64,000 nucleotides of DNA from Rhodovibrionaceae bacterium (lineage in GTDB: Bacteria > Pseudomonadota > Alphaproteobacteria > Kiloniellales > DSM-21159): the NCBI GenBank assembly GCA_028279885.1, contig JANQMX010000011.1, positions 21,113-85,112 on the forward strand, in the 5' to 3' direction. Shown piece by piece: positions 38,367 to 56,317 of this stretch (position 1 is the first letter of the stretch; the number at the start of each line of letters is the position of its first letter). The notes under the pieces were generated by a model, which worked only from the letters and a program-made list of their open reading frames with translations, had not been told where the DNA came from and did not search any database. The translations under genes and the position numbers were made by a program.

Positions 38367-38810
38367 ATGGGCACGTTCTGCATCACCCGCATCGTCGACC
38401 GCCCACGCGAGACTGTCTATGCTCTCGCCGCCGACGTCGAGGGCTATGCCGACTTCATTCCCGGCTTCGCCGACGCCCAGGTTCGCCCAGTAGGGAAGAA
38501 CCGGCTGGAGGTCGTGCAGCGCGTGCGCTTCAAAGGCCTCAGCGCGCGCTTCCGCTCGACGGCTGAGCTGGCACCGCCAGAGCGCATTGTCATCCGCTCG
38601 CACGACCGACCCTTCAAGGACCTCCATCAGGAATGGCGGCTGGAAGACCTCGGCGAAGGGCGCACCAAGATCACTTTCAGCGGTCACTATGCCTTGGGAT
38701 CCGCCAGGCTGGAGCGATGGTTCGGACGCTGGTTCGACCACCTCGTCGAGCGCACCGTCGACGCCTTTGAACAGCGCCTGCTTCAAGGCACCGCTCCACG
38801 GGAGGCTTAA
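38367..38810 (+). CDS. COQ10/RatA-like SRPBCC (START-like) protein
   Basis: A 147-residue START-like protein. ITRIVDRPRETVYALAADVEGYADFIPGFADAQV and the basic FKGLSARFRSTAEL match the COQ10/RatA family. Alphaproteobacterial members are thought to act in ubiquinone function, and some are annotated as ribosome-association toxins. Its stop is four bases from the convergent stop of the first radical SAM gene. A hydrophobic-ligand-binding fold next to a prenyltransferase locus is suggestive, but this gene is on the opposite strand. Confidence 0.88.
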   Translation: MGTFCITRIVDRPRETVYALAADVEGYADFIPGFADAQVRPVGKNRLEVVQRVRFKGLSARFRSTAELAPPERIVIRSHDRPFKDLHQEWRLEDLGEGRTKITFSGHYALGSARLERWFGRWFDHLVERTVDAFEQRLLQGTAPREA

Positions 38811-38814
38811 CCGC

Positions 38815-39792
38815 TCAGACAGTGTCCACCGCCTCGACACTTGGCACCGGCCAGGTCTCATTGGCGTGGCGCAGCAAGCCCGGCTCATTCCGACAGCGGG
38901 CGACGAAGTCTGCGACCTCTTGGCTGCGCCAAGCCTGCTGATAGCTGCGCCAGGCCTGCTCCACAGTCTGCCGCCGCAAGTCGCCGGGGGCGAAGGGCAG
39001 GGCGTTCAGCAGCTTCACTCGACCGTTCGGGACGATCAGGATCATCGCTTGTGGGCTGTCCAGGCGGCGCTGAATCTCGGTCTCGATATCCCAGGGATAG
39101 ATCGCGAGGCGCGGCCCACCGGCGGCCGCGGCCCGTGCTTCCAGCGCCTCCACGGTCGCGACCCAGTCGGGCGGGCTGGGGGCAAGGTTTTGCCAGTCGA
39201 GAGCAGCACGGCCTAGGCGCATCAGTGGCCCGGTGACGAAGACGCTGCAGCCAAGCTCTGCCGCAAGCTCATACGCCGCCACCGCTTCATGCAGATTGCG
39301 TCGAGACGGAACGAACACCCACTCGGCCGGGACGTTGCGCGCGCTCAGACGCCGCAGTGCGCCCGTCGCTTCGGCAAAGCTGGCTGCACCAGGACGCAAG
39401 GCCTCATGGGTCTCTGCCGTCGCGCCGTCAACCGAGACCTGAACGTTGTCCACGCGCAGACCGGCCAGCCGCTCGACCGCGGCATCGTCCAGTTCACCAC
39501 CGTCAGTTTCGATCTTGATGGCCACGCCACCGTCCGAGAGTGTCTGGAAGATCTCCCAGACGTATGGGATCCGCATCGGTTCCCCGCCGCCGAAGGCGAC
39601 ATACGGAATGCCGGTTTCGGCAATTTGGCGGGCGACACCAATCGCCTCCTCCCGGTCGAGTTCATCTGGCCAAGCCTTATCCGGGCCGGACTCCTCGCAG
39701 CAGGCAAGACAGCGGCCCCCGCAGCGATTGGTCAACTGCCAGGCAACGAAAAGCGGTGCGCTGAAGTCCTCGATGGAGGCTATGGAAGACAT
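38815..39792 (-). CDS. Radical SAM protein 1 of the peptide/UbiA cluster
   Basis: A 325-residue MoaA/PqqE-type radical SAM enzyme. The [4Fe-4S] cysteines are Cys24, Cys28 and Cys31 (WQLTNRCGGRCLACCEES), and the SAM motif GGGEP is at 68-72. The C-terminal region VPNGRVKLLNALPFAPGDLRR resembles a SPASM domain, but the expected cluster Cys residues are absent. It shares WQLTxxCxxxCxxC, ES-x-P-x-K-A and LPNG motifs with the other two radical SAM genes here, so the three are paralogues. It is the last gene of the operon, 124 bases after the peptide gene. Confidence 0.92.
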   Translation of the reverse strand: MSSIASIEDFSAPLFVAWQLTNRCGGRCLACCEESGPDKAWPDELDREEAIGVARQIAETGIPYVAFGGGEPMRIPYVWEIFQTLSDGGVAIKIETDGGELDDAAVERLAGLRVDNVQVSVDGATAETHEALRPGAASFAEATGALRRLSARNVPAEWVFVPSRRNLHEAVAAYELAAELGCSVFVTGPLMRLGRAALDWQNLAPSPPDWVATVEALEARAAAAGGPRLAIYPWDIETEIQRRLDSPQAMILIVPNGRVKLLNALPFAPGDLRRQTVEQAWRSYQQAWRSQEVADFVARCRNEPGLLRHANETWPVPSVEAVDTV

Positions 39793-39861
39793 CGTGGCAC
39801 GCGGGCGTCATGCGCGCCCGGCCTAGGTCCAATGGGGCCGATCGAGCAGAAAACAGATATC

Positions 39862-39902
39862 GCCGCCATCTCCCCTTGGCATGCCTGCGCGGAGATGGCG
39901 GC
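39862..39902 (-). terminator. Strong hairpin between the peptide gene and radical SAM 1
   Basis: GCCGCCATCTCC (39862-39873) pairs perfectly with GGAGATGGCGGC (39891-39902) around a 17-base loop. On the minus strand it is followed by only a short T-run (TGTTTTC), so it may be a leaky terminator or an RNA-stabilising structure. Placed just after the peptide gene, it would raise peptide message over the distal enzyme message. Confidence 0.6.
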
Positions 39903-39916
39903 TGGAAATCGTCGGC

Positions 39917-40072
39917 TCAGGTAAAGCGGATGTAGGGCTGCGCCATCACCTGATCGGAGATCTCTTCCATCGTCGGCGTTTCCCAGGCTGTCTTGCCTTG
40001 GCGAACGGTGGGCCGGTCCTCGCTCTTCTCGACAAGGCTCTCGGTCGTCTCCGGTCTCACAGTGTTGTCCAT
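39917..40072 (-). CDS. PqqA-like precursor peptide (51 aa)
   Basis: A short gene inside the radical SAM operon, 22 bases after radical SAM 2, with AAGGA eight bases before the ATG. The product has a 26-residue extension and then WETPTMEEISDQVMAQPY followed by IRFT. Aligned without gaps to the PqqA encoded at 56237-56317, Trp30, Pro33, Glu37, Ile38, Ser39 and Tyr47 match Trp4, Pro7, Glu11, Ile12, Ser13 and Tyr21. The PqqA Glu17, which is cross-linked to Tyr21 in PQQ synthesis, is Met43 here. I infer a modified-peptide precursor whose Tyr (and perhaps Trp) is processed by the neighbouring enzymes. Confidence 0.8.
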   Translation of the reverse strand: MDNTVRPETTESLVEKSEDRPTVRQGKTAWETPTMEEISDQVMAQPYIRFT

Positions 40073-40094
40073 ACGCTACGTCCTTTCTCTCCAT

Positions 40095-41099
40095 TCAGGC
40101 GTTGCAAACGGCCAGCTCCAGCTTCTGCCATGAGTTGGCGGCGGCGTGTTCGGCTTCGTCCGCGATCGCCCGGTGAAGCGCATCCACCAGCAACGGACTC
40201 TGCCAAGCCCGGCAGTAATTATGCCAAGCCTCTGAAAGGCTGCAATGGCGAAGTTCGGCCACGACATAGGATAGCGGCGCCGACGCTTTCACCCAGCCAT
40301 TAGGCAGAACGAGCAAGGTAGCGGGCGGTTCGTCGAGCAGCTGCCGCAGCCCGTCCACCATGCGGAACGGTAGGTAGCACAGCTCCATCTCCCCCCGGCC
40401 CGCCGCGGCCTCGCGGTCGAGCGTGGCCCGGAAGCGCTCGTACTGCGTATCGCTGGGGCGCAGCTTGCGCCAGTTCTTGGCGGCATTGCCGATGCGCATC
40501 AGCGCCCCGGTATTGAAGCGGAAGGCACCGAGGGCCCGGGCGCGCGCCAGAGCAGCCGGTAGCTCTTCGATATTGACCCGCGTTGGCGCAAAGGTGACCT
40601 CGAGCGGCAGGCCAGCATCCCGCACCGCCCGGCAGGCCGCATGCACCTTGGTAAGCGAGGCGCCGGGGCGCTGGCGGGCGTAAACCTCCTGTGTGTCGGC
40701 ATCCAGGCTGATCTGCACCGAGCGCACCGGTAAACCGGCAAGCCGAGCCGCGGCCTCCGAACTGAAGCGCTGACCGTTTGTCTCGATCTTCAGCTGCACC
40801 CCGGCCCTGCCCAGGCGTTCGGCCACTTCCAGGAAGTAGGGCACGATCATGGGTTCGCCGCCGCAGAGCATGACATAGGGCACGTCGGCGGCGATCAGTT
40901 CGTCGGCAAAGGCGAGTGCCTCCTCGCGCGTGAACTCGCCCTGCATCGCCTTGCCCGGCGCACTCTCGGTGCAGCAGTGGATACAGGCGAGATCGCAGTC
41001 GCGCGTCAGTTGCCAAGACACGAATATCGGCGCCGCCATGGTGTCGATATGGCGCGTGCGTTTGGCCGATTGCCTGTCGAGAGATGTACCGCCGTCCAT
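40095..41099 (-). CDS. Radical SAM protein 2 of the peptide/UbiA cluster
   Basis: A 334-residue radical SAM enzyme with cluster cysteines Cys35, Cys39 and Cys42 (WQLTRDCDLACIHCCTES) and SAM motif CGGEP near residue 80. The C-terminal third resembles a SPASM fold (LPNGWVKASAPLSYVVAELRH) without the CxxC-type ligands, although isolated Cys residues occur later. It begins 13 bases after the UbiA stop and ends 22 bases before the peptide gene. Being next to the peptide makes it the prime candidate for the first modification. It is a paralogue of the other two. Confidence 0.92.
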   Translation of the reverse strand: MDGGTSLDRQSAKRTRHIDTMAAPIFVSWQLTRDCDLACIHCCTESAPGKAMQGEFTREEALAFADELIAADVPYVMLCGGEPMIVPYFLEVAERLGRAGVQLKIETNGQRFSSEAAARLAGLPVRSVQISLDADTQEVYARQRPGASLTKVHAACRAVRDAGLPLEVTFAPTRVNIEELPAALARARALGAFRFNTGALMRIGNAAKNWRKLRPSDTQYERFRATLDREAAAGRGEMELCYLPFRMVDGLRQLLDEPPATLLVLPNGWVKASAPLSYVVAELRHCSLSEAWHNYCRAWQSPLLVDALHRAIADEAEHAAANSWQKLELAVCNA

Positions 41100-41112
41100 C
41101 GCCGCGTCCCGA

Positions 41113-42078
41113 TTAAGCTCCGAGCCAAGGCTGGCATAACAGCCCTAATGTGAAGAGCAGCACCGTCGCCAGATAGCAGCGCACGATGGCACGCACTGCC
41201 GGCACGAAGGCACGCGGCGTACGGCAGGTTTGTCGCCCACGCAAAAAGCTCAGCAGCAGCAGCGGCAGGGCAGCAAGGGCCAGCAAGCAGGGCCAGGGAA
41301 AAACGCCGATCACGACACCAAGCGGCACCACCAACAGTGCCAGGCCGGCAAGACCGCTGTAGAGCCAGACCGCCCGCTCGCGGCCGAGCCGCACGACGAG
41401 GTTGCGTTTGCCGACGAGCCGGTCCTGGTGAAAGTCGGGAATGGCGTTGACGACGGCGAGCGCCATGATCAGGAAGCCCGGCACCAGAGAGGCTAGCAAG
41501 GCCGGACCGATCACCGACCAAGCCATCGTCTGAGCGTGCAGGTGCAGACTGCCCAGCACCATTAATGGGCCGTAGGAGAGCGCGATCACCGTTTCCCCGA
41601 GACCGCGGTAGGCCCAGCGGATGGGCGGCGCGACATAAAAAGCGGCCGCCATGCCGCCCAAGCCGGCGTAAAACAGAATGGGCCAGCCAGTCTCCAGCGC
41701 CAAGTAGATGCCAACCGCCAGCGCCCCAGCGAAGGCGGCGATACCCAACACCAAGACGGCCACCGACATAGGCGGTGGGTCTTCCGGATTGAACACCCGG
41801 TCCGTGCCCTCGCGGTCGTCGAAGTACTCGTTGAAGGCCTCGACGCCGACCACGGCGAGCAGGATGCCGGCGAGTCCGATCCAGAACATCGTCGGCTGGA
41901 AGACATCGGCGATTGCGTAAGCCCAAGCGGCGCCAAGGAGATAAGGCAACAGGCCCGCATAGAGGAAGAAGCGGTAGCGCACCATGCTAGCGACATAGCC
42001 GAGGAGGCCAGGCAGGCTGCGCGGTCGTGCCTTGGCTGCAGGCGAGGCTTCGAAGCCGGCGTTTACACGAAGATCCAT
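41113..42078 (-). CDS. UbiA-family prenyltransferase within the radical SAM/peptide operon
   Basis: A 321-residue polytopic membrane enzyme with about eight to nine segments. The first Asp-rich motif is NEYFDDREGTD at 83-93 and the second is NAIPDFHQDRLVGK at 211-224, both binding Mg-diphosphate of the prenyl donor. The arrangement is closest to MenA-like members that prenylate dihydroxyaromatics. Its start overlaps the radical SAM 3 stop by 16 bases, and it ends 13 bases before radical SAM 2, so it is firmly part of the operon. The acceptor is inferred to be an aromatic residue or fragment from the peptide. Confidence 0.93.
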   Translation of the reverse strand: MDLRVNAGFEASPAAKARPRSLPGLLGYVASMVRYRFFLYAGLLPYLLGAAWAYAIADVFQPTMFWIGLAGILLAVVGVEAFNEYFDDREGTDRVFNPEDPPPMSVAVLVLGIAAFAGALAVGIYLALETGWPILFYAGLGGMAAAFYVAPPIRWAYRGLGETVIALSYGPLMVLGSLHLHAQTMAWSVIGPALLASLVPGFLIMALAVVNAIPDFHQDRLVGKRNLVVRLGRERAVWLYSGLAGLALLVVPLGVVIGVFPWPCLLALAALPLLLLSFLRGRQTCRTPRAFVPAVRAIVRCYLATVLLFTLGLLCQPWLGA

Positions 42079-43082
42079 CGGTGCAGCTCGGCCGTCTTCT
42101 TGGGATTGTCGCTGAGGTCGTCGACAAACTGCGCTATGCGCGGGTCCTGCCAGGCCCGTTGGAAGTTCGACCAGATCGCCTTCAAAGACTCTTTGCGCAG
42201 GTCGCCGCAGATGAAGGGCAACGCGTTGATCAGCTTGACCAGTCCATTGGGTAGCACGATGAGCAGAGCTGCGGGATGCTCAAGGCGCTCGCGCATCTCA
42301 TGCAGCAGGCCCATCTCATGAAAATGTACGCGCATCCGGCCATCGTACTCGTGGCGCTTGGCATACAGAACTTCGAAGAAGGGACCATACTCTGCATCGC
42401 TCGGCGCCATCATCTGCCAGGTCTTGACCGCATTGCCGGTGTACATGGTGCGACCAGTATAGAAGCTGCCGGCGCCAAGCTCGTAGGCGAGATCGACGGC
42501 GCGGCCGATCTCATGAACGTTGAAGGATGTGGGCGAATAGTTAATTTCCAGCGGCACCCCAGCCGCGTGAACGTTGCGGATGCCCTGCAGCACGTGATCA
42601 AAGTCCCCGCGCACCCGCATCTTGTTGAAGGTATCCCGCGTCGCGCCGTCCATGCTGACCTGCACCGACTTGACCGCATAGTCCTTCAGCCGCTGACAGG
42701 CCTCTTCGGTCAGGTAGTGACCGTTGGTCTCGATCTTGAGCTGGGCCCCGCCCTCGGCACCGAACTTGGCCAAGTCGAAGAAGCGCGGGTGCAGCATAGG
42801 CTCGCCGCCAGAGAGCGAAACATAAGGCACGTCTAACTCGACGGCTTGGCGCATCACGGAGAAGACCTGATCGTCCTCGAGCTCGTCCTTGAAAGCCTTG
42901 CCGGGCCCGCTCTCCTCGATGCAGTGCAGGCAGGCGTAGTTGCACTCGTTGGTGAGCTGCCAGGCGATGTAGAGCGGCGCACCGAGGTTGCCCGACGTGG
43001 TCTCGCCAGGCGTCACCGGCTGCAGCCGCCGGTCTTCGCCGACGTCAACCTCAGTGCCTTGCTCGGGGGCGGCCTCCTCCAT
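42063..43082 (-). CDS. Radical SAM protein 3 of the peptide/UbiA cluster
   Basis: A 339-residue radical SAM enzyme. Cys47, Cys51 and Cys54 (WQLTNECNYACLHCIEES) hold the cluster, SGGEP is the SAM motif, and a 35-residue polar N-terminal extension precedes the barrel. The C-terminal SPASM-like region (LPNGLVKLINALPFICGDLRK) has only a single Cys. I use the ATG at 43082, four bases after the pqqD-like stop, rather than an earlier ATG inside that gene. A UbiA start overlaps its end. Confidence 0.92.
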   Translation of the reverse strand: MEEAAPEQGTEVDVGEDRRLQPVTPGETTSGNLGAPLYIAWQLTNECNYACLHCIEESGPGKAFKDELEDDQVFSVMRQAVELDVPYVSLSGGEPMLHPRFFDLAKFGAEGGAQLKIETNGHYLTEEACQRLKDYAVKSVQVSMDGATRDTFNKMRVRGDFDHVLQGIRNVHAAGVPLEINYSPTSFNVHEIGRAVDLAYELGAGSFYTGRTMYTGNAVKTWQMMAPSDAEYGPFFEVLYAKRHEYDGRMRVHFHEMGLLHEMRERLEHPAALLIVLPNGLVKLINALPFICGDLRKESLKAIWSNFQRAWQDPRIAQFVDDLSDNPKKTAELHRWIFV

Positions 43083-43086
43083 GCCC

Positions 43087-43344
43087 TCAGCTCTCGTCAA
43101 CCAAGCCCTGTTCACGTAGCTGCTGGGTGAAAGCACGCGCCTCACGACCGATTTGCTCGCCGTCTTGAGCGGCGTACTCGGCTTCCAGCCGAGCGGGTAT
43201 CTCGCCTTCCGGCGTGCCGGCCTGGATCTCCCGTACGACAGCAGCAGCCGTGGGATTGAGCGCGTAGACTTTCTCCGACCGAGTCTCGAAGAGAACCCCG
43301 CCGAACTTCTCCTGTCGGAACTTGACGTACTTTGCGAGCTTCAT
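43087..43344 (-). CDS. PqqD-like RiPP recognition protein
   Basis: An 85-residue PqqD-family protein, the peptide-binding (RRE) fold that delivers precursor peptides to radical SAM partners. Recognisable are KFRQEKFGGVLFETRSEKVYALNPTAAAVVREIQ in two short halves and a C-terminal helical part FTQQLREQGLVDES. The ATG at 43344 gives the normal length; the frame is open for another 30 codons that are not PqqD-like. It is the first gene of the six-gene operon, so its presence next to radical SAM enzymes and a peptide supports a RiPP assignment. Confidence 0.88.
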   Translation of the reverse strand: MKLAKYVKFRQEKFGGVLFETRSEKVYALNPTAAAVVREIQAGTPEGEIPARLEAEYAAQDGEQIGREARAFTQQLREQGLVDES

Positions 43345-43589
43345 CGGATCTGCACACCTTTGCTGCTTGCAGACTGCAGCTATCACACCGCCACAGCGGA
43401 TTTCTCGCCCACTATGACACGACGTCAGCGTCAAGCAAAGCTAACACACTATGTGAGGTCAAGAGCTTGACACAGGTCAACCGGAATTGAGGCGTGGACT
43501 CTTTGCGCCTGGTTGCCTCTGAACCTCAAACCTTTATGTTCGTTTACAGCCACCGGATGAGAGTGGCTTACAAACAAGGGAGGATAGAT
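43345..43589. promoter_or_regulatory. Divergent control region with repeated GTCAA half-sites
   Basis: Between the RiPP operon (minus) and the dehydrogenase (plus). GTCAA occurs at 43430-43434, 43458-43462 and 43476-43480 and as TTGAC at 43467-43471. The 43458-43471 pair forms a palindrome GTCAAGAGCTTGAC. A possible dehydrogenase promoter is TTGCCT (about 43512) and TATGTT about 16 bases later. A shared regulator binding here would couple both units. Confidence 0.5.
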
Positions 43590-44855
43590 ATGTTCGGGAA
43601 AGCCGCCTGGCTGGGGGCAACCGCCGCCGCCGCGCTCCTTTTGGCTGCTGGTTCCGCCAGCGCCAACAACCTCGACAAGCTCCAGCAATTCAAGATCACC
43701 GGCTCTTCGCTGGATATCGAAACCGTAGACCAGGACACGGACTACGCGGCACAGCTGCGCAAGAACCTGGAAATGATCAATATGCCGCCAGGCTTCAAGA
43801 TCGACCTCTACGCCGTGGTGCCCGACGCGCGGCACATGGCGATTGGCCGCTCCACCGGCATGGTCTTCGTCGGCACTCGCAAGACACGAGTCTGGGCCGT
43901 CACCGACCGCAACAAGGACCGCGTCGCCGACGAGGTGAAGGTCTTCGCCCCGCCGGTCGACTTCAAGGTGCCCAACGGCGTGTGCTTCTCGCCCGATGGA
44001 TTCCTCTATGTTGTGGAGCACAACCGCATTCTGAACTTCCCCGCCGCCGAGTTCTTCTATGAGAGCCCGGACGTCGCTGTGATCGTCACGGTCGATCAGG
44101 GGCAGCTCATCCCCGTCGAGGAAGAGTCCTTCAACCACGGCGCCCGCGTCTGCCGCATCGGCCCCGACGACAAGCTCTACGTGGCGCTGGGCCAACCCTT
44201 CAACGTGCCGCCCAAAGAGAAGATGGCGCTCTATGACGAGACCGGCATCGGCGGCATCGTCCGCATGAACCGCTGGGATGGCAGCGACCGCGAGGTCTAC
44301 ACCTTGGGCGTCCGCAACTCGGTCGGCATCGACTTCAACCCGGCGAACGGCGAGCTCTGGTGGACCGACAATCAGGTCGACGGCATGGGTGACGACATCC
44401 CGCCAGGCGAGATCAACCGACAGACCGCGGCCGGCCAACACTTCGGCTTCCCTTACTACGGCGGCGGCTTGGTGCGCACAGCGGATTACCAGGACGAGAC
44501 CCCGCCTGCGGACGCCGTTCCCCCGGTCGTCGAGACGGTTGCCCACGCGGCCGACCTAGGCCTAACCTTCTACACCGGGCGGCAATTCCCTGAGCAATAC
44601 AGAGGCGGTATCTTCAGCGCCCAGCACGGCTCCTGGAACCGCACCACGCCGATCGGCGCCCGCGTCATTTTCACGGCCGTAAACGAAGACGGCTCGGTGG
44701 GTGAGACCAAGGTCTTTGCCGACGGCTGGCTGCTTGACACCGGCGAGTACATGGGCCGGCCTGTCGACGTGGCGCAGCTGCCTGACGGCTCCATCCTGGT
44801 GTCCGATGACTTTGCCGGTGCGATCTACCGCATCTCCTACGAAGCGCCGGAGTAA
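43590..44855 (+). CDS. Exported PQQ-dependent sugar dehydrogenase-like / sorbosone dehydrogenase family beta-propeller
   Basis: A 421-residue protein with a signal peptide of about 25 residues ending SASA. The body is the soluble glucose/sorbosone dehydrogenase propeller: MPPGFKIDLYAVVPDARHMAIG, VPNGVCFSPDGFLYVVEHNRIL, GVRNSVGIDFNPANGELWWTDNQVDGMGDDIPPGEIN, FYTGRQFPEQYRGGIFSAQHGSWNRT (in pieces). The His and Arg-Asn positions seen in PQQ enzymes appear kept. AAGGGAGG precedes the ATG at 43590. It is divergent from the PqqA-like/UbiA operon and followed by a cytochrome, so it may use the cofactor made there, or ordinary PQQ. Confidence 0.9.
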   Translation: MFGKAAWLGATAAAALLLAAGSASANNLDKLQQFKITGSSLDIETVDQDTDYAAQLRKNLEMINMPPGFKIDLYAVVPDARHMAIGRSTGMVFVGTRKTRVWAVTDRNKDRVADEVKVFAPPVDFKVPNGVCFSPDGFLYVVEHNRILNFPAAEFFYESPDVAVIVTVDQGQLIPVEEESFNHGARVCRIGPDDKLYVALGQPFNVPPKEKMALYDETGIGGIVRMNRWDGSDREVYTLGVRNSVGIDFNPANGELWWTDNQVDGMGDDIPPGEINRQTAAGQHFGFPYYGGGLVRTADYQDETPPADAVPPVVETVAHAADLGLTFYTGRQFPEQYRGGIFSAQHGSWNRTTPIGARVIFTAVNEDGSVGETKVFADGWLLDTGEYMGRPVDVAQLPDGSILVSDDFAGAIYRISYEAPE

Positions 44856-44896
44856 GAGTGCGTACGAGGCGGCAAGCCTGACTCGTTCAAACAACA

Positions 44897-44925
44897 GGCC
44901 GGGGCGCAGAACTCGCGTCCCGGCC
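44897..44925 (+). terminator. Stem-loop after the dehydrogenase
   Basis: GGCCGGGGCGC (44897-44907) pairs with GCGTCCCGGCC (44915-44925), eleven pairs including one G-U. Only a short T-rich run follows (GCTTTGTT). It probably attenuates read-through from the dehydrogenase to the cytochrome gene. Confidence 0.6.
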
Positions 44926-44952
44926 GCTTTGTTGGATAACGACCGTATTGCA

Positions 44953-45291
44953 ATGAAGATACCTCACCATTCCACAGCTCTGGCAGCCGCCGTTTTTGCC
45001 GCGACGCTGTTGGCGGCGCCCGCCATGGCTGGCGATACGGCCCTGGGCCGTCACAAAGCCAAAGCTTGCGCCGCCTGCCATGGGATCGACGGCGTAGCCA
45101 AGATGCCCCACGTGCCCAACATCGCCGGCGAAAGCACGATCTACCTGGAAAAGCAGCTCAAGGCTTTCCGCTCCGGCGAACGCCACGATCCGATGATGTC
45201 GATCATCGCCGAAGGCCTGTCGGACGACGATATTGCCAACGTCTCGGCCTGGTACGCCGCCATCAAGATCGAGGTCACCCTGCCGGAGTGA
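44953..45291 (+). CDS. Exported class I c-type cytochrome
   Basis: A 112-residue periplasmic cytochrome. The signal peptide is about 26 residues, ending AMA. One haem site is CAACHGIDG near residue 39, and the axial Met is probably in HDPMMSIIAEGLSDDDIANVSAWYA near residue 80. It resembles small cytochromes that take electrons from quinoprotein dehydrogenases. It follows the sorbosone-dehydrogenase-like gene by 97 bases on the same strand, making it the likely electron acceptor of that enzyme. Confidence 0.92.
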   Translation: MKIPHHSTALAAAVFAATLLAAPAMAGDTALGRHKAKACAACHGIDGVAKMPHVPNIAGESTIYLEKQLKAFRSGERHDPMMSIIAEGLSDDDIANVSAWYAAIKIEVTLPE

Positions 45292-45297
45292 CAAGCC

Positions 45298-46839
45298 CTA
45301 CCGTGGGTGCAGCCACTTGGGCAGGAAGCTGTAGGCATCGGCCTTGAGGTCTTTGTCGAAGGGCACGCCGTATTTCTCAAGACGCGTCTGCAATGCGCCG
45401 CAATTGAAGGCATCGAAGGCGTCGGTCGCCCCGCCGATCAGCTCGCAGCCGACAAAGATCTGCGGAATGGTCGGCGCGCCAGTGAGTAAGAACAGAGCTT
45501 TGCGGATCTCGGTGCTGCTGGCCGGTGCCTTGAACGAACCTGAGTCGAGATCGACCGATCGGAAGGGGATACCCGCCGCGGCGAAGAGCTTCCGTACCGA
45601 CCGGCAGAACTCACACCACTCCAACGCGAACATGACCACCGGCTGCTGCGGATCGCCAATCGTGTCTTCAACGAAGGCGGTCGCAGCCGGCGCAGCGTCC
45701 AGCGGGAGGACGGCGGTAGGCGATACGGTGGCAACATCGAAACGACAGAGCGGCGTTGAAGTTGAGATCGCTTGCTCCGCTTCGGTCATGTCCTCGGGGA
45801 CGCCATCGAACAGCGGCGTCGAAAGATAGCGCTCCCCAGTGTCCGGGATCATGGCCAGGATTCGAGTGCCCGGTTCGGCCGCCTCGGCGACGCGAAGAGC
45901 GGCCGCCAGGGTTGCCCCGCCGGTGATGCCAGCGAAAATCCCTTCCTTGCTGGCCAAATCCTTCGCGCCTTGCATGGCAGCGGCACCCGACACCGGCTCC
46001 ATGCGGTCGATCAAGCCGGCCTCGACTACATCGCCGGTGAGCTTGGGAATGAAGTCGGGAGACCAGCCCTGCATGGGATGCGGCCGGAAAGAGGGATGGC
46101 TTGCAGCCGCCGAGCCATCAGCCTGCCGCGTCTGTGCGATCCCGCTCGCCAGGATCTGGGAGTTGTCCGGCTCTGCAACGACAATGGTGGTCTGCGGGCT
46201 CTCGGCCTTCAACACACGCGAGACACCCTTCAAGGTCCCGCCGGTGCCAAAGCCTGTCACCCAGTAGTCAAGGCCGAGTTCCGCGAAGTCTTCCAGGATT
46301 TCCCGCGCCGTGGTGCGCGAGTGCACGTCGGCGTTGGCCTCGTTCTCGAACTGGCGGGTAAGGAACCAGCCGTGCGTCTCAGCCAGCTCGCGCGCCTTGG
46401 CGAGCATGCCGGTTCCTTTTTCCGAGGCCGGCGTCAGCACCACCTTCGCCCCAAGAAAACGTAAGAGCTTGCGGCGCTCGATGCTGAAGTTCTCGGCCAT
46501 CACGACAACCAACGGGTAGCCCTTTTGGGCGCAGACCATGGCAAGTCCGATGCCGGTGTTCCCTGAGCTCCCCTCGACAACCGTTTGGCCAGGCTTAAGC
46601 AAACCTGCCTGCTCGGCCGCCTCGATCACACCAAGAGCCAGACGGTCCTTGACCGAGCCCATAGGGTTGAAGGCCTCAAGCTTGGCATAGAGCGCAACGT
46701 GCTTGGGGCCGATGTTGTTCAAGCGAACAATCGGCGTCCGACCGATGGTGTCGAGCACCGAGGGTCTCGGCCCCGGGGCAATGTTCGCGTTGGCGGCCCG
46801 CCGGGTCATATCGGCTGACGCTGTGAACGCTGGGGCCAT
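45298..46839 (-). CDS. Cysteine synthase-like PLP enzyme fused to glutaredoxin domain
   Basis: A 513-residue fusion. Residues about 25-335 are a fold-type II PLP enzyme: Lys in FNPMGSVKDRLA, the substrate loop EGSSGNTGIGLAM, the phosphate loop GFGTGGTLKG and EPVSGAAAMQGAKDL. The last 100 or so residues form a glutaredoxin-like domain with CEFC near residue 415 and TIPQIFVGCELIGG. The middle link is about 40 residues. The ATG at 46839 has AAGGAG seven bases upstream. It may make cysteine or a related thiol compound in a redox-controlled way. Confidence 0.9.
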   Translation of the reverse strand: MAPAFTASADMTRRAANANIAPGPRPSVLDTIGRTPIVRLNNIGPKHVALYAKLEAFNPMGSVKDRLALGVIEAAEQAGLLKPGQTVVEGSSGNTGIGLAMVCAQKGYPLVVVMAENFSIERRKLLRFLGAKVVLTPASEKGTGMLAKARELAETHGWFLTRQFENEANADVHSRTTAREILEDFAELGLDYWVTGFGTGGTLKGVSRVLKAESPQTTIVVAEPDNSQILASGIAQTRQADGSAAASHPSFRPHPMQGWSPDFIPKLTGDVVEAGLIDRMEPVSGAAAMQGAKDLASKEGIFAGITGGATLAAALRVAEAAEPGTRILAMIPDTGERYLSTPLFDGVPEDMTEAEQAISTSTPLCRFDVATVSPTAVLPLDAAPAATAFVEDTIGDPQQPVVMFALEWCEFCRSVRKLFAAAGIPFRSVDLDSGSFKAPASSTEIRKALFLLTGAPTIPQIFVGCELIGGATDAFDAFNCGALQTRLEKYGVPFDKDLKADAYSFLPKWLHPR

Positions 46840-46861
46840 AGCACCACTCCTTTGTCTTCGT

Positions 46862-48100
46862 TCAAGCTGCGCGGCGTCTGTCGAGATGGCCGAGCAGATG
46901 ATCGGCAAGCTCGCTGGCGTCCACGCCCACGCCGGAGATCTGGTGGGACCTGCGACGCCGCATGAAAGTCAGGCCCATCGCATAGAGCCCTGGCGCGGCA
47001 ACCACCCCGCCCTGGTGACGCAGACGCCCGCGCGCATCGAAGACAGGCACCTTCAACCAGGAGAAATCGGGCCGATAGCCGGTCGCCCAGAGGATCGAAC
47101 GGATGCCCCCGTCGGTCAGGCTGCGCTGCAACACTGGCGAGGATGGCAGACGCGTTGCAGCCGGCCGGTCCGGCGGTGGCAGCGCGCTGTCCAAACCTCG
47201 CTCTGCCACCCAGTCATCGACTGCATCGAGCAGGCGGTGCATCTTGAGGTCGGCCGCTGCGCTGGCGTTCGCTAGGCCACCTGAGAACAGAGCCTGGCCG
47301 TCACGAACATCCGCCAACCGTCCGACCACTTCGACGCCGAGCGCTTGCAAGGCATTGAGGTCGACCGCCTCCGCCCCGCCGATCAACTGCGGCGAAGGCG
47401 TACGGCGCGCGCGCTCCAAATCGTCGACCTCATCGAAGCGCTCGTCCATCAGACCGATAGCATCGAGCCACCACTCCACGTCACGGCCGCGGTAGCTACG
47501 CGGCAGACGGGTGTGCCAGCCAGTCGCCAAAGTTACCGGACGGCCCGAGAGCTGTAGCTCGCGAGCCAGCTGCGCGCCCGTTGCCGAAGCACCGACCACC
47601 AGCACGCCGCCCTCGGGCAGATCGTTTGGCCGTTTGTACATGGCAGGCGTGGTCTGGAAGACGGCGCTCGACGCCGCAACGGACAACGCGGGTACGCTGG
47701 GCCGGGCACAGGCGCCGCCTGCCATCACTAGAGCCTCGCACTGGAGCGACCCCTGGCTGGTGTCGACGCGGTAGCCGCAGTCGGTTCGGCTGGCCCGCAG
47801 TACCGCCGTTTGGCCTTGCAGGGGCACGCCGAACCGCCAGGCGTAGGTCTCCAGTTGAATGAGCAACTTGGAGACCGACATGAAGCCGTCCGGGTCGGAG
47901 CCACGATAAGGAGCCCCGGGCAAACCGTTCGACCAGTTGGGCGTGAGCAGGCGCAGGCTATCCCAGCGATGATTGCGCCAGGCATTGCCAACAACACCGC
48001 GGTCGAGCACCAGATGATCCACGCCGCGGTCCGACAGCGCACGACTCATGGCGAGCCCGGCCTGGCCGGCACCAACGATGATGGCAGTGACAGCTCTCAC
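46862..48100 (-). CDS. FAD/NAD(P)-dependent flavoprotein monooxygenase-like
   Basis: A 412-residue two-dinucleotide-domain flavoprotein. The N-terminal FAD motif is AIIVGAGQAGLAMSRAL, a WRNHRWDSLRLLTP segment follows as in CzcO/flavin monooxygenases, and the second Rossmann motif is VLVVGASATGAQLARELQ near residue 165. ILWATGYRPDFSWL near residue 335 is the familiar ATG motif. It lies 22 bases upstream of the cysteine synthase fusion on the same strand, so they are likely co-transcribed. Substrate unknown. Confidence 0.9.
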   Translation of the reverse strand: MRAVTAIIVGAGQAGLAMSRALSDRGVDHLVLDRGVVGNAWRNHRWDSLRLLTPNWSNGLPGAPYRGSDPDGFMSVSKLLIQLETYAWRFGVPLQGQTAVLRASRTDCGYRVDTSQGSLQCEALVMAGGACARPSVPALSVAASSAVFQTTPAMYKRPNDLPEGGVLVVGASATGAQLARELQLSGRPVTLATGWHTRLPRSYRGRDVEWWLDAIGLMDERFDEVDDLERARRTPSPQLIGGAEAVDLNALQALGVEVVGRLADVRDGQALFSGGLANASAAADLKMHRLLDAVDDWVAERGLDSALPPPDRPAATRLPSSPVLQRSLTDGGIRSILWATGYRPDFSWLKVPVFDARGRLRHQGGVVAAPGLYAMGLTFMRRRRSHQISGVGVDASELADHLLGHLDRRRAA

Positions 48101-53144: not shown

Positions 53145-54242
53145 TCAGCGCCGGTAAATGTAGTCCGGGTCGCCGGAGTCGGCCTCGGCTTGGGCAGTTG
53201 CCAGCATCACGGCGTGGTGGGGGGAGAGGCTGCAGGCCGGGTCGGTGGCGGTGGCGTCGCCGGTGAGCGCGAAGGCTTGGCAGCGGCAGCCGCCGAGATC
53301 GCGCTCACGATGCTCGCAGGAGCGACAGGGCTCGGCCATCCAGTCGGTGCCGCGGAAGCGATTGAAGATCTCCGCGCTCGCCCAGATCTCGGCCAGGCTC
53401 CCCTCCCGCACCGAAGGGAACTCCAGGCCAGTGATGGTCTCGGCGGCGTGGCAGGGCAGCATGCGCCCGCGCGGGGTCACCGCGAAGTACTGGGAGCCCC
53501 AGCCGTCCATGCACTTCTTGGGATAGCGGGCATAGTAATCCGGGACCACGTAGTCGATGGCGAGGCGCCCTCGATACTCCTTGCGCGCCGCCTCCACGAC
53601 CTCGGTCGCATGGTCGACCTGGGCGCGGCTCGGCATCAGGCTCGCGCGGTTGGTCAGGGCCCAGCCGTAGTACTGCACATGCGCGACCTCCAGCCGGTGG
53701 GCATCGAGCGCCAGGGCGAGATCGATAATCTCCTCGATGCGGTCGAGGTTCTGGCGATGCACCACCACGTTGACCGTGAGCGGCAGGCCGGCTTCCCGCA
53801 CCAGCTTGGAGACGGCGAGCTTCTTCTCGTGGCCGCCCTTGAAGTTGCCGATCAGGTCGCCGCCGGCGGCGCGGGAATCCTGAAAGGAGATCTGCACGTG
53901 GTCGAGACCGGCCGCCTTGAGCGTGGCCAGCTTGGCCTCGTCGAGCATCACGCCGGAGGTGATGAGGTTGCTGTAGAGCCCAGCCGCCTGAGCGGCAGCG
54001 ACGATCTCGGCCAAGTCCGGCCGCGCCGTCGGCTCGCCGCCGGAGAGGTGGATCTGCATCACGCCGAGCGCCGCCGCCTGGCGGATGACGTTGCACCACT
54101 CTTCGGTGCTCAGTTCCTCGCTGCGGCGCTGCAGGTCCAACGGGTTGGAGCAATAGGGGCACTGCAAGGGGCAGCGGTGCGTTAGCTCCGCCAGCATGGC
54201 GATGGGCGGCCGGAGAGCAGAGGCTGCGGAGCCATCCGCCAT
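53145..54242 (-). CDS. pqqE: PQQ synthesis radical SAM protein PqqE
   Basis: Joins Glu and Tyr of PqqA by a carbon-carbon bond. The 365-residue protein has CPLQCPYC in LAELTHRCPLQCPYCSNP near residue 25, LSGGEP, and a full SPASM region with MDGWGSQYFAVTPRGRMLPCHAAE, CRSCEHRERDLGGCRCQAF and a later Cys. This contrasts with the degenerate SPASM regions of the three radical SAM genes at 38.8-43.1 kb. It is the last gene of pqqABCDE, one base after pqqD. Confidence 0.96.
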   Translation of the reverse strand: MADGSAASALRPPIAMLAELTHRCPLQCPYCSNPLDLQRRSEELSTEEWCNVIRQAAALGVMQIHLSGGEPTARPDLAEIVAAAQAAGLYSNLITSGVMLDEAKLATLKAAGLDHVQISFQDSRAAGGDLIGNFKGGHEKKLAVSKLVREAGLPLTVNVVVHRQNLDRIEEIIDLALALDAHRLEVAHVQYYGWALTNRASLMPSRAQVDHATEVVEAARKEYRGRLAIDYVVPDYYARYPKKCMDGWGSQYFAVTPRGRMLPCHAAETITGLEFPSVREGSLAEIWASAEIFNRFRGTDWMAEPCRSCEHRERDLGGCRCQAFALTGDATATDPACSLSPHHAVMLATAQAEADSGDPDYIYRR

Positions 54243-54243
54243 G

Positions 54244-54537
54244 TCAGTCGACCTCGAGAAAACCGCGCTCGGCGAGCAACGTCAGCACGGCCATAACGTC
54301 CTCGGCGATCTCGCCCGGCGGCGCATCGTACTCGGCGGCGAGCACCTGCGTGATCTCCGCCAGCGAACGCCCCTCGCCGCAGCGGTCGAGGATAGCCTTC
54401 CCGGTCTCGTCGAGGATTAGGATGCGCTCCGGCGCCTGCAGTACCCAGGACTCGCGCACCTCGTCCCGCTGCATGCGCACGAAGGAGGCCAGCTTGGGTC
54501 GGCTCTCCTCGGTCAGCAGCGGTGCATCCTGTTGCAT
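54244..54537 (-). CDS. pqqD: PQQ synthesis peptide chaperone PqqD
   Basis: A 97-residue PqqA-binding protein (RRE domain) that presents PqqA to PqqE. RPKLASFVRMQRDEVRESWVLQAPERILILDETGKAILDRC-type sequence and VLTLLAERGFLEVD at the end are standard. The ATG at 54537 lies one base after the pqqC stop; longer open frame upstream overlaps pqqC and is not PqqD-like. It is 25-30 residues unlike the second PqqD-like protein at 43087-43344 in detail. Confidence 0.94.
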   Translation of the reverse strand: MQQDAPLLTEESRPKLASFVRMQRDEVRESWVLQAPERILILDETGKAILDRCGEGRSLAEITQVLAAEYDAPPGEIAEDVMAVLTLLAERGFLEVD

Positions 54538-54538
54538 C

Positions 54539-55282
54539 TCAGGCCTGCGGAACGAAGGCGTCGGGAGGCGGCAAGCGCGGCTCGACGTAGGCGAAGTAAA
54601 GCGCGTCGAGCTGGGACCAGAGGACATTGGTCTTGAAGACCAATGCCTGGCAGACGCTGTCCTCCAGTTCCGGCGTGGTGGCGTGGCGCACAACGTAGTC
54701 GAGGGCGAAGTCAGCATCGCGCGGCGCCTGGGTCATGCGGCCCTTGAAATAGATCAGCATGTCCTCGTCGACGAAGTCGTACTGCGCCAGCATGGAGGTC
54801 ACCCGCTCGCGGATGATGCCGGGGGAGAAGAGCTCGGTGAGCGAGGAGGCGATGGCTTCGATCAATGGCTTGTCGCGCACGAAAGTAACGTAGGCGTCGA
54901 CGGCGAACTTGGTGGCGGGCAGCACCCCGGCCTCGGAGACCACATAGTCGCGGTCGAGGCCGAGGCCCTGGCAGAGGTGCAACCACTTGCGCAAGCCGCC
55001 CTCGCCTTCACGCGTGCCGTCATGGTCGATCACGCGCTGAGACCAGATGCGCCTCAGGTCGGCGTCGACCAGCCGCGACATCATCACCGAGTCCTTGATG
55101 GGGATGCGGCTCTGATAATAGTAGCGGTTCAGCGCCCAGGCCTGGACCTGCGCCTTGGTCAGCTTGCCGTCGCGCATCAGGGCGTGGAAGGGATGCTTGT
55201 CGTGGTAGCGCTCGGCGCCGATCTGGCGCAGGCGCGCCTCCAGATTGCTGCCGGTGTTGGGGGCCAGTTCAGTAACGGCCAA
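54539..55282 (-). CDS. pqqC: Pyrroloquinoline-quinone synthase PqqC
   Basis: Cofactorless oxidase that performs ring closure and the last eight-electron oxidation of PQQ. The 247-residue length and sequence are standard: RYHDKHPFHALMRDGKLTKAQVQAWALNRYYYQSRIPIKD, DGTREGEGGLRKWLHLC, and VTSMLAQYDFVDEDMLIYFKGR. Conserved His and Tyr residues of the active site are present. It overlaps pqqB by 14 bases and ends one base before pqqD. Confidence 0.97.
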   Translation of the reverse strand: MAVTELAPNTGSNLEARLRQIGAERYHDKHPFHALMRDGKLTKAQVQAWALNRYYYQSRIPIKDSVMMSRLVDADLRRIWSQRVIDHDGTREGEGGLRKWLHLCQGLGLDRDYVVSEAGVLPATKFAVDAYVTFVRDKPLIEAIASSLTELFSPGIIRERVTSMLAQYDFVDEDMLIYFKGRMTQAPRDADFALDYVVRHATTPELEDSVCQALVFKTNVLWSQLDALYFAYVEPRLPPPDAFVPQA

Positions 55283-56183
55283 GGCTCAGCTCCATCCCAT
55301 CATGAGCCACCTCCCAGCCTGCCGCCTCGACTTCGCGGCGCTCGGCGCTGTCGCCGAGCAGGACCGGGTTGGTGTTGTTGATGTGGATGAAGATTTTGCG
55401 CTTCGTATCGACATCTGCAAGGGCCGCCATGGCCCCATCCGGGCCACTCATCGAGATATGGCCCATGCGCTGGCCGGTCTTGCTGCCTTCGTTGCGGGCG
55501 ATCAGCTCGTCATCCTGCCAGAGCGTGCCGTCGAAAAAGAGCGCGTCGGCACCGGCGCAGCGGGCCTTGAGCTCCGGCGTGACGGCGGCGCAGTTGGCGA
55601 TATAGAGCAGGCGCCGACCCTCGGGGTCGGTCATCTCTAAACCGATGGTGTCACCCTCCTGGGTGCCGAAATCGGCCCCCGCCTCCGGCTTCTCAAGAAA
55701 GAGGGCGACCTTGCCGGGCACCGGAAAGGCCTCGACGGTCAAACCGGCGATCTTGGCCGGCTGTCCTACTTCGAAGGGCTCGCGGCTCACCACGCCCGGG
55801 GCGAGCACGTTGAAGATAGGGTTGGCCTCGAGGACCGAGAGGATGCGGGGATGGGCATGCAGCGCAAAGGCCGTGCGCTCCCGCAGATTCAGGAGGCCGG
55901 CAATGGCGTCCACATCGGCGTTGGTCAGCACCACCGCGGCGATGGGCGTTGAGCGCAAGCCCTCTTGCGGATGCAGGCAGGGGTTGGCCTCGATCTGCTG
56001 CCGCAGATCGGGTGACGCATTGACGATCAGCCAATCGCGCCCGTCGGCGCTGACGGCGATTGAAGCTTGGGTGGCTGGACGCGCTAGAACATCGCCTGAG
56101 CGCACACGGCGGCAGGCAGCGCTGTTACTGTTCCATTGCGGAAAGCCGCCGCCCGCGGCGGCGCCCAGCACGCGAACGTGCAT
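55269..56183 (-). CDS. pqqB: PQQ synthesis metallo-hydrolase-fold protein PqqB
   Basis: A 304-residue metallo-beta-lactamase-fold iron enzyme, implicated in hydroxylating the cross-linked Glu-Tyr intermediate. Standard features are VRVLGAAAGGGFPQWN at the start, VVLTNADVDAIAGLLNLRE, FFDGTLWQDDELI and GHISMSGPDGAMAAL with HINNTNP near the C-terminus. It follows pqqA after a 53-base gap and overlaps pqqC. Confidence 0.97.
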   Translation of the reverse strand: MHVRVLGAAAGGGFPQWNSNSAACRRVRSGDVLARPATQASIAVSADGRDWLIVNASPDLRQQIEANPCLHPQEGLRSTPIAAVVLTNADVDAIAGLLNLRERTAFALHAHPRILSVLEANPIFNVLAPGVVSREPFEVGQPAKIAGLTVEAFPVPGKVALFLEKPEAGADFGTQEGDTIGLEMTDPEGRRLLYIANCAAVTPELKARCAGADALFFDGTLWQDDELIARNEGSKTGQRMGHISMSGPDGAMAALADVDTKRKIFIHINNTNPVLLGDSAERREVEAAGWEVAHDGMELSLGRY

Positions 56184-56236
56184 GAAGTTCTAGAAGACGT
56201 GCCGCCCGTGGCACAAGCCATTGGGCGGAAACGACG

Positions 56237-56317
56237 TTAGATCTTGGCGCAGACGTAGAGGTTGATCTCCATGCCGGCGGAGATCTCACGAACGACGGGC
56301 CGCTTCCACTTCTTCAT
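56237..56317 (-). CDS. pqqA: PQQ precursor peptide PqqA
   Basis: A 26-residue peptide with Trp4, Pro7, Glu11-Ile12-Ser13 and the motif GMEINLYVC. Glu17 and Tyr21 of EINLY are the residues joined to form PQQ. GGGAGGAG lies just upstream of the ATG. It is the first gene of the operon and a good template for comparison with the second, Met-containing peptide at 39917-40072. Confidence 0.97.
   Translation of the reverse strand: MKKWKRPVVREISAGMEINLYVCAKI

Follow-up and report, generated by a model that had tools for sequence, protein, structure and literature searches.

A minus-strand operon at positions 38815-43344 of a 64,000-nucleotide stretch of DNA from a Rhodovibrionaceae bacterium (contig JANQMX010000011.1; the whole stretch is called the window here) encodes a PqqD-like protein, three radical S-adenosylmethionine (radical SAM) proteins (rSAM1 to rSAM3), a UbiA prenyltransferase, and a peptide of 51 amino acids (aa). 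Gene content, conserved residues, and genomic associations are what we observed, and from them we infer reactions by which the operon probably turns the C-terminal aromatic part of the peptide into a polyprenylated membrane quinone, a predicted product that would likely serve as a respiratory electron carrier. More tentatively, the operon could be a third, ribosomal route to a naphthoquinone, in which the menaquinone-type head group of a respiratory and photosynthetic quinone comes from a coded peptide in cells that lack the Men and futalosine routes. The simplest form of such a route may consist of four genes, encoding the peptide, PqqD, one radical SAM enzyme, and a MenA-like UbiA.

The coordinates and spacing of six minus-strand genes given by an earlier sequence-only reading of this DNA were confirmed, and Pfam supported its assignment of one PqqD, three Radical_SAM, and one UbiA domain. 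The PqqD-like protein (43087..43344) is a putative peptide-binding protein of the recognition element (RRE) type found with ribosomally synthesized and posttranslationally modified peptides (RiPPs); it matches PqqD (PF05402) with 49 bits against a cut-off of 23.4 and is 85 aa long when counted from the ATG that its relatives use, within an open frame that extends to 43434. It is followed by the core enzyme rSAM1 (42063..43145, with a likely start near 43082) and the MenA/UBIAD1-like membrane prenyltransferase (41113..42078; UbiA, 75 bits against 34.2), in which the Asp-rich motifs are kept. Next come rSAM2 (40095..41099; 71 bits), the precursor peptide (39917..40072), which ends in WETPTMEEISDQVMAQPYIRFT, and rSAM3 (38815..39792; 68 bits), with gaps of 22 bases between rSAM2 and peptide and 124 bases between peptide and rSAM3. 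The Radical_SAM domain scores 68 to 81 bits in the three enzymes (cut-off, 29.5). The peptide had no Pfam match in the scan of window genes, and none of the six genes reaches the cut-off of any NCBIfam model.

To place the operon among its relatives, we used 47 named loci collected by UbiA alignment search, with taxon labels taken from record titles. UbiA is adjoined by rSAM1 in all 47, and a PqqD homolog lies just upstream of rSAM1 in 45, the contigs of the other two (L018 and L056) beginning inside rSAM1; one PqqD query, L037_6, was a wrong antisense ORF, and its opposite-strand matches were left out of these counts. The peptide motif is present in 44 of the loci. Of the remaining three, L044 ends just past UbiA, L056 begins inside rSAM1, and the contig of L054 begins ∼600 bases before rSAM1, which puts the expected peptide site at or beyond its edge. 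The sequence-only reading had staked its proposal on UbiA and radical SAM genes co-occurring elsewhere and on the peptide being conserved in related loci, and both hold. The three-enzyme set that it emphasized is real, being present in 32 loci from Pseudomonadota and Elusimicrobiota (L044 could not be judged), but it is not the core, since 14 of the 47 loci show a single radical SAM gene and 10 of these 14 have downstream sequence without further copies. The minimal unit has the order peptide, PqqD, rSAM1, UbiA, and this four-gene core was found in Omnitrophota, Planctomycetota, and others; the single-enzyme loci come from these two phyla, Bacillota, some Elusimicrobiota, one deltaproteobacterium, and two metagenome-assembled genomes (MAGs) labeled as Chloroflexota species. 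The rSAM2 and rSAM3 sequences form one tree group each (31 and 32 rows, respectively) and thus look like ancient paralogs added to the core.

A reverse search with a DNA pattern for the peptide matched 17 of 198 Elusimicrobiota genomes, a reversed control pattern matched none of the 198, and every one of the 17 peptides adjoins UbiA and/or radical SAM genes. Six of these carriers are the genomes of named loci (L028, L034, L043, L050, L053, and L064). UbiA of the operon family (at least 44% identity) was found in 17/17 peptide-positive and 0/42 peptide-negative Elusimicrobiota genomes, the latter having only UbiA proteins of at most 35% identity; these 42 are those of the 181 peptide-negative genomes with a listed size of at least 2.2 Mb. 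In a sample of 385 genomes from the window's own class, the pattern matched only the window's genome, and the operon is therefore rare there. Within the window's family, UbiA occurs in a genus mate and is absent from ten other genomes. Further UbiA searches returned mostly metagenome proteins. One relative, P0130, comes from a record labeled Nitrososphaerales archaeon, and the range of the system may extend to archaea.

Evidence that the peptide is a substrate comes from the pattern of its conservation. We aligned 62 peptide rows, comprising 44 named loci, the window, and the 17 pattern matches, six of which repeat named loci. All share a tail of the form xAQP[Y/F]IRFT, in which the residue before AQP is Met in 61 rows and Thr in one, the aromatic residue is Tyr in 60, and the remaining residues are invariant. 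The 44 named copies represent 38 distinct DNA versions that differ mostly at synonymous positions; in the tail, the only nonsynonymous changes are Met to Thr in one copy and Tyr to Phe in two. A tail that stays fixed while its codons vary indicates strong selection on the peptide. The leader follows the pattern W-x2-P-x-[LMI]-x-[EDN]-[VI]-[ST], of which W-x2-P-x-[LMI] is kept, with Trp in 61 of the 62 rows. The peptide thus has the leader and conserved core of a RiPP-type precursor, encoded beside an RRE-type protein. Phe replaces Tyr in the peptides at L057:8614-8739 and L060:8615-8704. In these same two loci, the first Asp motif of UbiA is shortened too (NEYFEP..DR), and the variants may have a different head group.

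The peptide also resembles PqqA, the precursor of pyrroloquinoline quinone (PQQ). It aligns without gaps with a 26-aa PqqA-like ORF (MKKWKRPVVREISAGMEINLYVCAKI) in the window's own PQQ operon, and 1 of 2,000 shuffles aligned equally well. A peptide profile ranked this ORF second among 1,689 reported rows from a set of one PqqA and 2,000 shuffles, with one shuffle above it, so the link is suggestive only. No PqqA model was among the NCBIfam and Pfam matches of 30 peptides at an E value of ≤10, a search in which HMMER filters drop most weak matches. The few weak matches that a few peptides did give, the best being SAUGI (E = 0.0003) and a lasso leader (E = 0.0019), look unrelated. Both the register shared with the PqqA-like ORF and the fixed tail support the peptide as the substrate of the operon.

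The three radical SAM enzymes carry the CxxxCxxC motif of their superfamily within the Radical_SAM domain and have no match to the Pfam SPASM domain (PF13186). A C-terminal Cys is conserved in rSAM1 (42/42), has a counterpart in 26 of 31 rSAM2 sequences (Val in the window), and is not conserved in rSAM3; these counts and the tree cover radical SAM reads of 290 to 400 aa and leave out two unrelated L049 genes. The best NCBIfam models were the mycofactocin maturase and AhbD, at 96 to 128 bits against cut-offs of 265 to 500. The PqqE equivalog model scored 57 to 84 bits against a cut-off of 381, compared with 573 bits for the window's true PqqE, and the PqqD-like protein scored 23 bits against 46 for the PQQ-specific PqqD model. 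Of the families covered by the structure tables, those nearest to the model of rSAM1 are SkfB, SuiB, and PqqE, all of which act on peptides. In three Elusimicrobiota loci (L032, L033, and L034), the PqqD ORF has ∼60 extra aa before the PqqD domain and follows a polyprenyl-diphosphate synthase gene.

We also considered whether the operon is a diverged PQQ operon. This reading was rejected, as the window has a genuine one ∼10 kb away (pqqB, pqqC, pqqD, and pqqE at 53145-56317, minus strand, all above their NCBIfam cut-offs) and the peptide is matched by no PqqA model. The models for mycofactocin, SynChlorMet, heme d1, and further named systems all score far below cut-off, and these systems were likewise rejected. 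The earlier description of a peptide pathway that resembles the PQQ route, is distinct from it, and includes a prenyltransferase is supported, the gapless likeness to the PqqA-like ORF being one point in its favor.

Several lines of evidence point from this peptide pathway to a lipoquinone. The fold and two Asp-rich motifs place UbiA in its superfamily, its best NCBIfam models are those of MenA (69 bits against 102 and 105 against 264, both below cut-off), and its best structural match is UBIAD1. Enzymes of the MenA/UBIAD1 kind act on small aromatic rings. A polyprenyl-diphosphate synthase homolog adjoins the operon in 14 of the 47 loci (13 from Elusimicrobiota and L048 from Omnitrophota), an assignment confirmed by NCBIfam in L034 and L048; a match ∼6 kb away in L040 was not counted. 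In a Planctomycetota MAG, a six-gene NQR-type operon (L049:2863-8541) ends 15 bases before the peptide of a four-gene operon. Finally, a COQ10/RatA-like START protein gene (38367..38810, plus strand) is convergent with rSAM3 in the window; it exceeds the Polyketide_cyc cut-off with 74.7 bits and stays below that of a RatA-family model (56 bits against 258). A homolog lies beside rSAM3 in five named alphaproteobacterial loci (L018, L019, L030, L036, and L058); the gene is a possible quinone-related neighbor. A weak match with 23% identity in L022, located away from rSAM3, was not counted.

The quinone and oxidase genes of carrier genomes agree with a role in respiration. Among Elusimicrobiota, heme-copper oxidases occur in 14/17 carriers and 11/42 noncarriers (Fisher P = 0.0001, a value that ignores relatedness among genomes that are mostly MAGs). 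Strong pairs of the futalosine-route proteins MqnA and MqnD (MqnA/D) occur in 0/17 carriers and 9/42 noncarriers, and when only oxidase-bearing genomes are compared the figures are 0/14 and 7/11. In 42 carrier genomes tested for both menaquinone routes, a set without L018, L020, L025, L030, and L058 and hence without Rhodovibrio, MenD exceeded its cut-off in one and MqnA/D in two, with best scores near the cut-off (29 and 33 bits against 26). Only MenD matches above the cut-off were used, since with no cut-off applied the model picks up related thiamine diphosphate enzymes in 35 of the 42 genomes.

The quinones of particular carriers are also informative. Rhodothalassium, which contains menaquinone MK-10, carries the operon (L021, in G468) and has neither MqnA/D nor a MenD above cut-off. 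Rhodopila globiformis likewise carries the operon (L023, in G470) and lacks MqnA/D, and its best MenD match is 74 bits against a cut-off of 244; MK-9 is reported for it (PMC12542754), and a cryo-electron microscopy study models menaquinone at QA (PMC9640540). Rhodovibrio salinarum encodes a UbiA of the operon family (P0032, 78% identity) and is reported to contain Q-10 and MK-10 (PMC11316597; PMC7179689), and the six family members tabulated alongside it all have ubiquinone only (PMC11316597). The reports of menaquinone in Rhodovibrio and Rhodopila, both carriers of the operon or its UbiA, suggest a menaquinone-type naphthoquinone as the most likely head group, and this is also the weakest step of the proposal.

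In the mechanism that we propose, the PqqD-like protein would hold the peptide leader, as its family suggests, while rSAM1 would use carbon-radical chemistry to introduce an initial carbon bond or cleavage at the aromatic position equivalent to the Tyr of PqqA. Candidates for the modified residue are Tyr/Phe at −5 and Phe at −2. Where the operon is expanded, rSAM2 and rSAM3 may finish or vary the ring. A general protease of the host could then free the head group, to which UbiA would attach a polyprenyl chain, presumably supplied in some lineages by the adjacent synthase, and the resulting lipid would serve oxidases and NQR. Taken together, the polyprenyl-diphosphate synthase, the NQR-type operon, the COQ10-like neighbor, the kind of UbiA, the association with oxidases, and the scarcity of MenD and of MqnA/D in carriers support a lipoquinone, and the evidence points to a pool lipoquinone of respiration rather than a cofactor dedicated to one dehydrogenase.

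Beyond the relatedness that the P value ignores, a number of observations weigh against this proposal. The Tyr hydroxyl is not always needed, given Phe in two loci, and the COQ10-like and polyprenyl-synthase neighbors are each limited to particular clades. Proteobacterial carriers are expected to have ubiquinone anyway. Within Elusimicrobiota, the MenD test covered 6/17 carriers and 0/42 noncarriers. In four of the 11 oxidase-bearing noncarriers, the peptide and a strong MqnA/D pair are both absent (a weak single match occurs in two of these four), so an oxidase without a recognized quinone route also occurs without the operon. In 14 further carrier genomes (13 with a single radical SAM gene seen and the genome of L047), a heme-copper oxidase was found in four and MenG above cut-off in four. 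In Elusimicrobiota, MenG/UbiE scores of at least 129 bits occur in 1/17 carriers and 18/42 noncarriers, including 9/9 of those bearing Mqn, and MenG exceeds its curated cut-off in 1/17 and 14/42; the sole MenG-bearing carrier, G443, is of the four-gene type, and three more carriers score 75 to 82 bits. With MenG missing in 16 of the 17, the quinone of these carriers would not be MenG-made menaquinone, a reading that we rejected for Elusimicrobiota. A naphthoquinone made by these carriers may be the demethyl form or receive its methyl group by another route, or the ring may be a different one.

Other explanations of the same gene set were weighed. It is unlikely, though deserving of attention, that the product is the whole prenylated peptide, a lipidated RiPP acting as a membrane-held redox or metal-binding peptide, a signal, or an antimicrobial rather than as a quinone. 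The entire tail is fixed beyond the aromatic residue, as would be expected if the product retained most of the peptide, and no protease gene was found to recur beside the operon in related loci. Clustering of ORFs called with a rough ORF caller found no recurring transporter or immunity gene family either, which speaks against a lipidated RiPP, as do the association with oxidases and with an NQR-type operon, the way in which the operon and MqnA/D replace each other, and a UbiA whose kind works on small rings. We think it improbable that UbiA makes an ordinary quinone from scavenged or cryptic naphthoate while the peptide and radical SAM genes form a separate, cotranscribed RiPP system: a MenA-like UbiA in carriers where MenD and MqnA/D are rare would fit, but the four genes are kept together across several phyla, and none of the 59 Elusimicrobiota genomes tested was found to have the family UbiA without also having the peptide. 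A heme-modifying pathway, in which the radical SAM enzymes act on a tetrapyrrole as AhbD and NirJ do and UbiA prenylates it, seems very improbable. It would account for the co-occurring heme-copper oxidases and for AhbD as the best NCBIfam match of rSAM1 (128 bits against 500, with NirJ models at 101 to 107); all these scores are far below cut-off, however, the NCBIfam match list of UbiA is headed by MenA and includes no heme O synthase model, the rSAM1 structure model is nearest to peptide-acting enzymes, and heme routes are not known to involve a fixed peptide or a PqqD protein.

The sequence-only reading had assigned a prenylated, peptide-derived redox cofactor to the genes divergent from the operon, a sorbosone-dehydrogenase-like propeller of the GSDH family (48 bits against 25) followed by a cytochrome c (Cytochrom_C, 30 bits against 21.3), which together span 43494-45291 on the plus strand, and had asked whether the pair always travels with the operon. 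The idea of a prenylated, peptide-derived redox molecule is supported by our results; the partnership with these genes is not. Their divergent position and the GSDH family of the propeller favor it, but none of the 47 related loci, among them L019 with 74 to 76% identity in rSAM1 and UbiA, has a homolog of either gene at an E value of ≤1e-4 in the fetched DNA (best cytochrome match, E = 0.012), and the true PQQ operon ∼10 kb away could serve such an enzyme. A cofactor dedicated to this pair is thus the least probable of the explanations, with hardly any credit left to it, and the two genes are probably local neighbors without a link to the conserved unit. Beyond them, on the minus strand at 45298-46908, lies a gene for a pyridoxal phosphate-dependent (cysteine-synthase-like) enzyme with a C-terminal glutaredoxin domain.

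If the lipoquinone proposal is correct, the operon represents a novel means of producing an electron carrier, and many uncultured bacteria would have a membrane electron carrier that is gene encoded and evolves like a protein. PQQ-like chemistry would be extended to the membrane, and the operon would offer a radical SAM enzyme that lacks SPASM cysteines and acts on a nearly invariant substrate. The narrower naphthoquinone route would in addition account for menaquinone in Rhodovibrio and Rhodopila and for the lack of a quinone pathway in Elusimicrobiota that respire. To our knowledge, no lipoquinone derives from a ribosomal peptide and no peptide cofactor route includes a UbiA enzyme, which would make this a new category, resting on the predicted product. 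As far as searches of the open-access literature show, the gene set is undescribed: no paper on it or on the peptide was found, the titles listed by broader searches dealt with different topics, and the sequence-only reading likewise knew of no described pathway with these genes.

Among known systems, PQQ biosynthesis (PqqA-PqqD-PqqE) is the closest in logic, sharing a short precursor that combines a W-x2-P leader with an aromatic residue at the equivalent position, a PqqD-type chaperone, a radical SAM enzyme, and, as predicted here, a peptide-derived quinone product. It differs in that the Glu of the E-x3-Y pair joined by PqqE is replaced by Met (Thr in one row), and the operon misses the PqqE and PQQ-type PqqD models, has no PqqA match, lacks SPASM domains, and adds a membrane prenyltransferase. 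Mycofactocin (MftA-MftB-MftC) shares the logic of a RiPP-derived redox cofactor, and MftC is among the best radical SAM models, but the operon scores only 96 to 109 bits against 265 for MftC and 21 against 33 for MftB. Mycofactocin is glycosylated, not prenylated. With the Men and futalosine routes to menaquinone the operon shares a UbiA closest to MenA models and UBIAD1 structures and a likely lipoquinone product; unlike them, it would take its head group from a ribosomal peptide, and its carriers lack MenD above cut-off (41/42), MqnA/D (40/42), and, in Elusimicrobiota, MenG (16/17), the operon never standing alongside a strong MqnA/D pair in that sample. A precedent for an overlooked lipoquinone route is the methyl-plastoquinone pathway of Nitrospirota, several steps of which use homologs of ubiquinone, plastoquinone, and menaquinone enzymes and in whose description, as far as the cited text goes, no peptide is mentioned (PMC13386864). 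The same 2026 survey describes numerous lineages that lack quinone pathways, as well as four species in which menaquinone has been measured and a menaquinone pathway is absent (PMC13386864), and against it the operon stands as a concrete, testable candidate.

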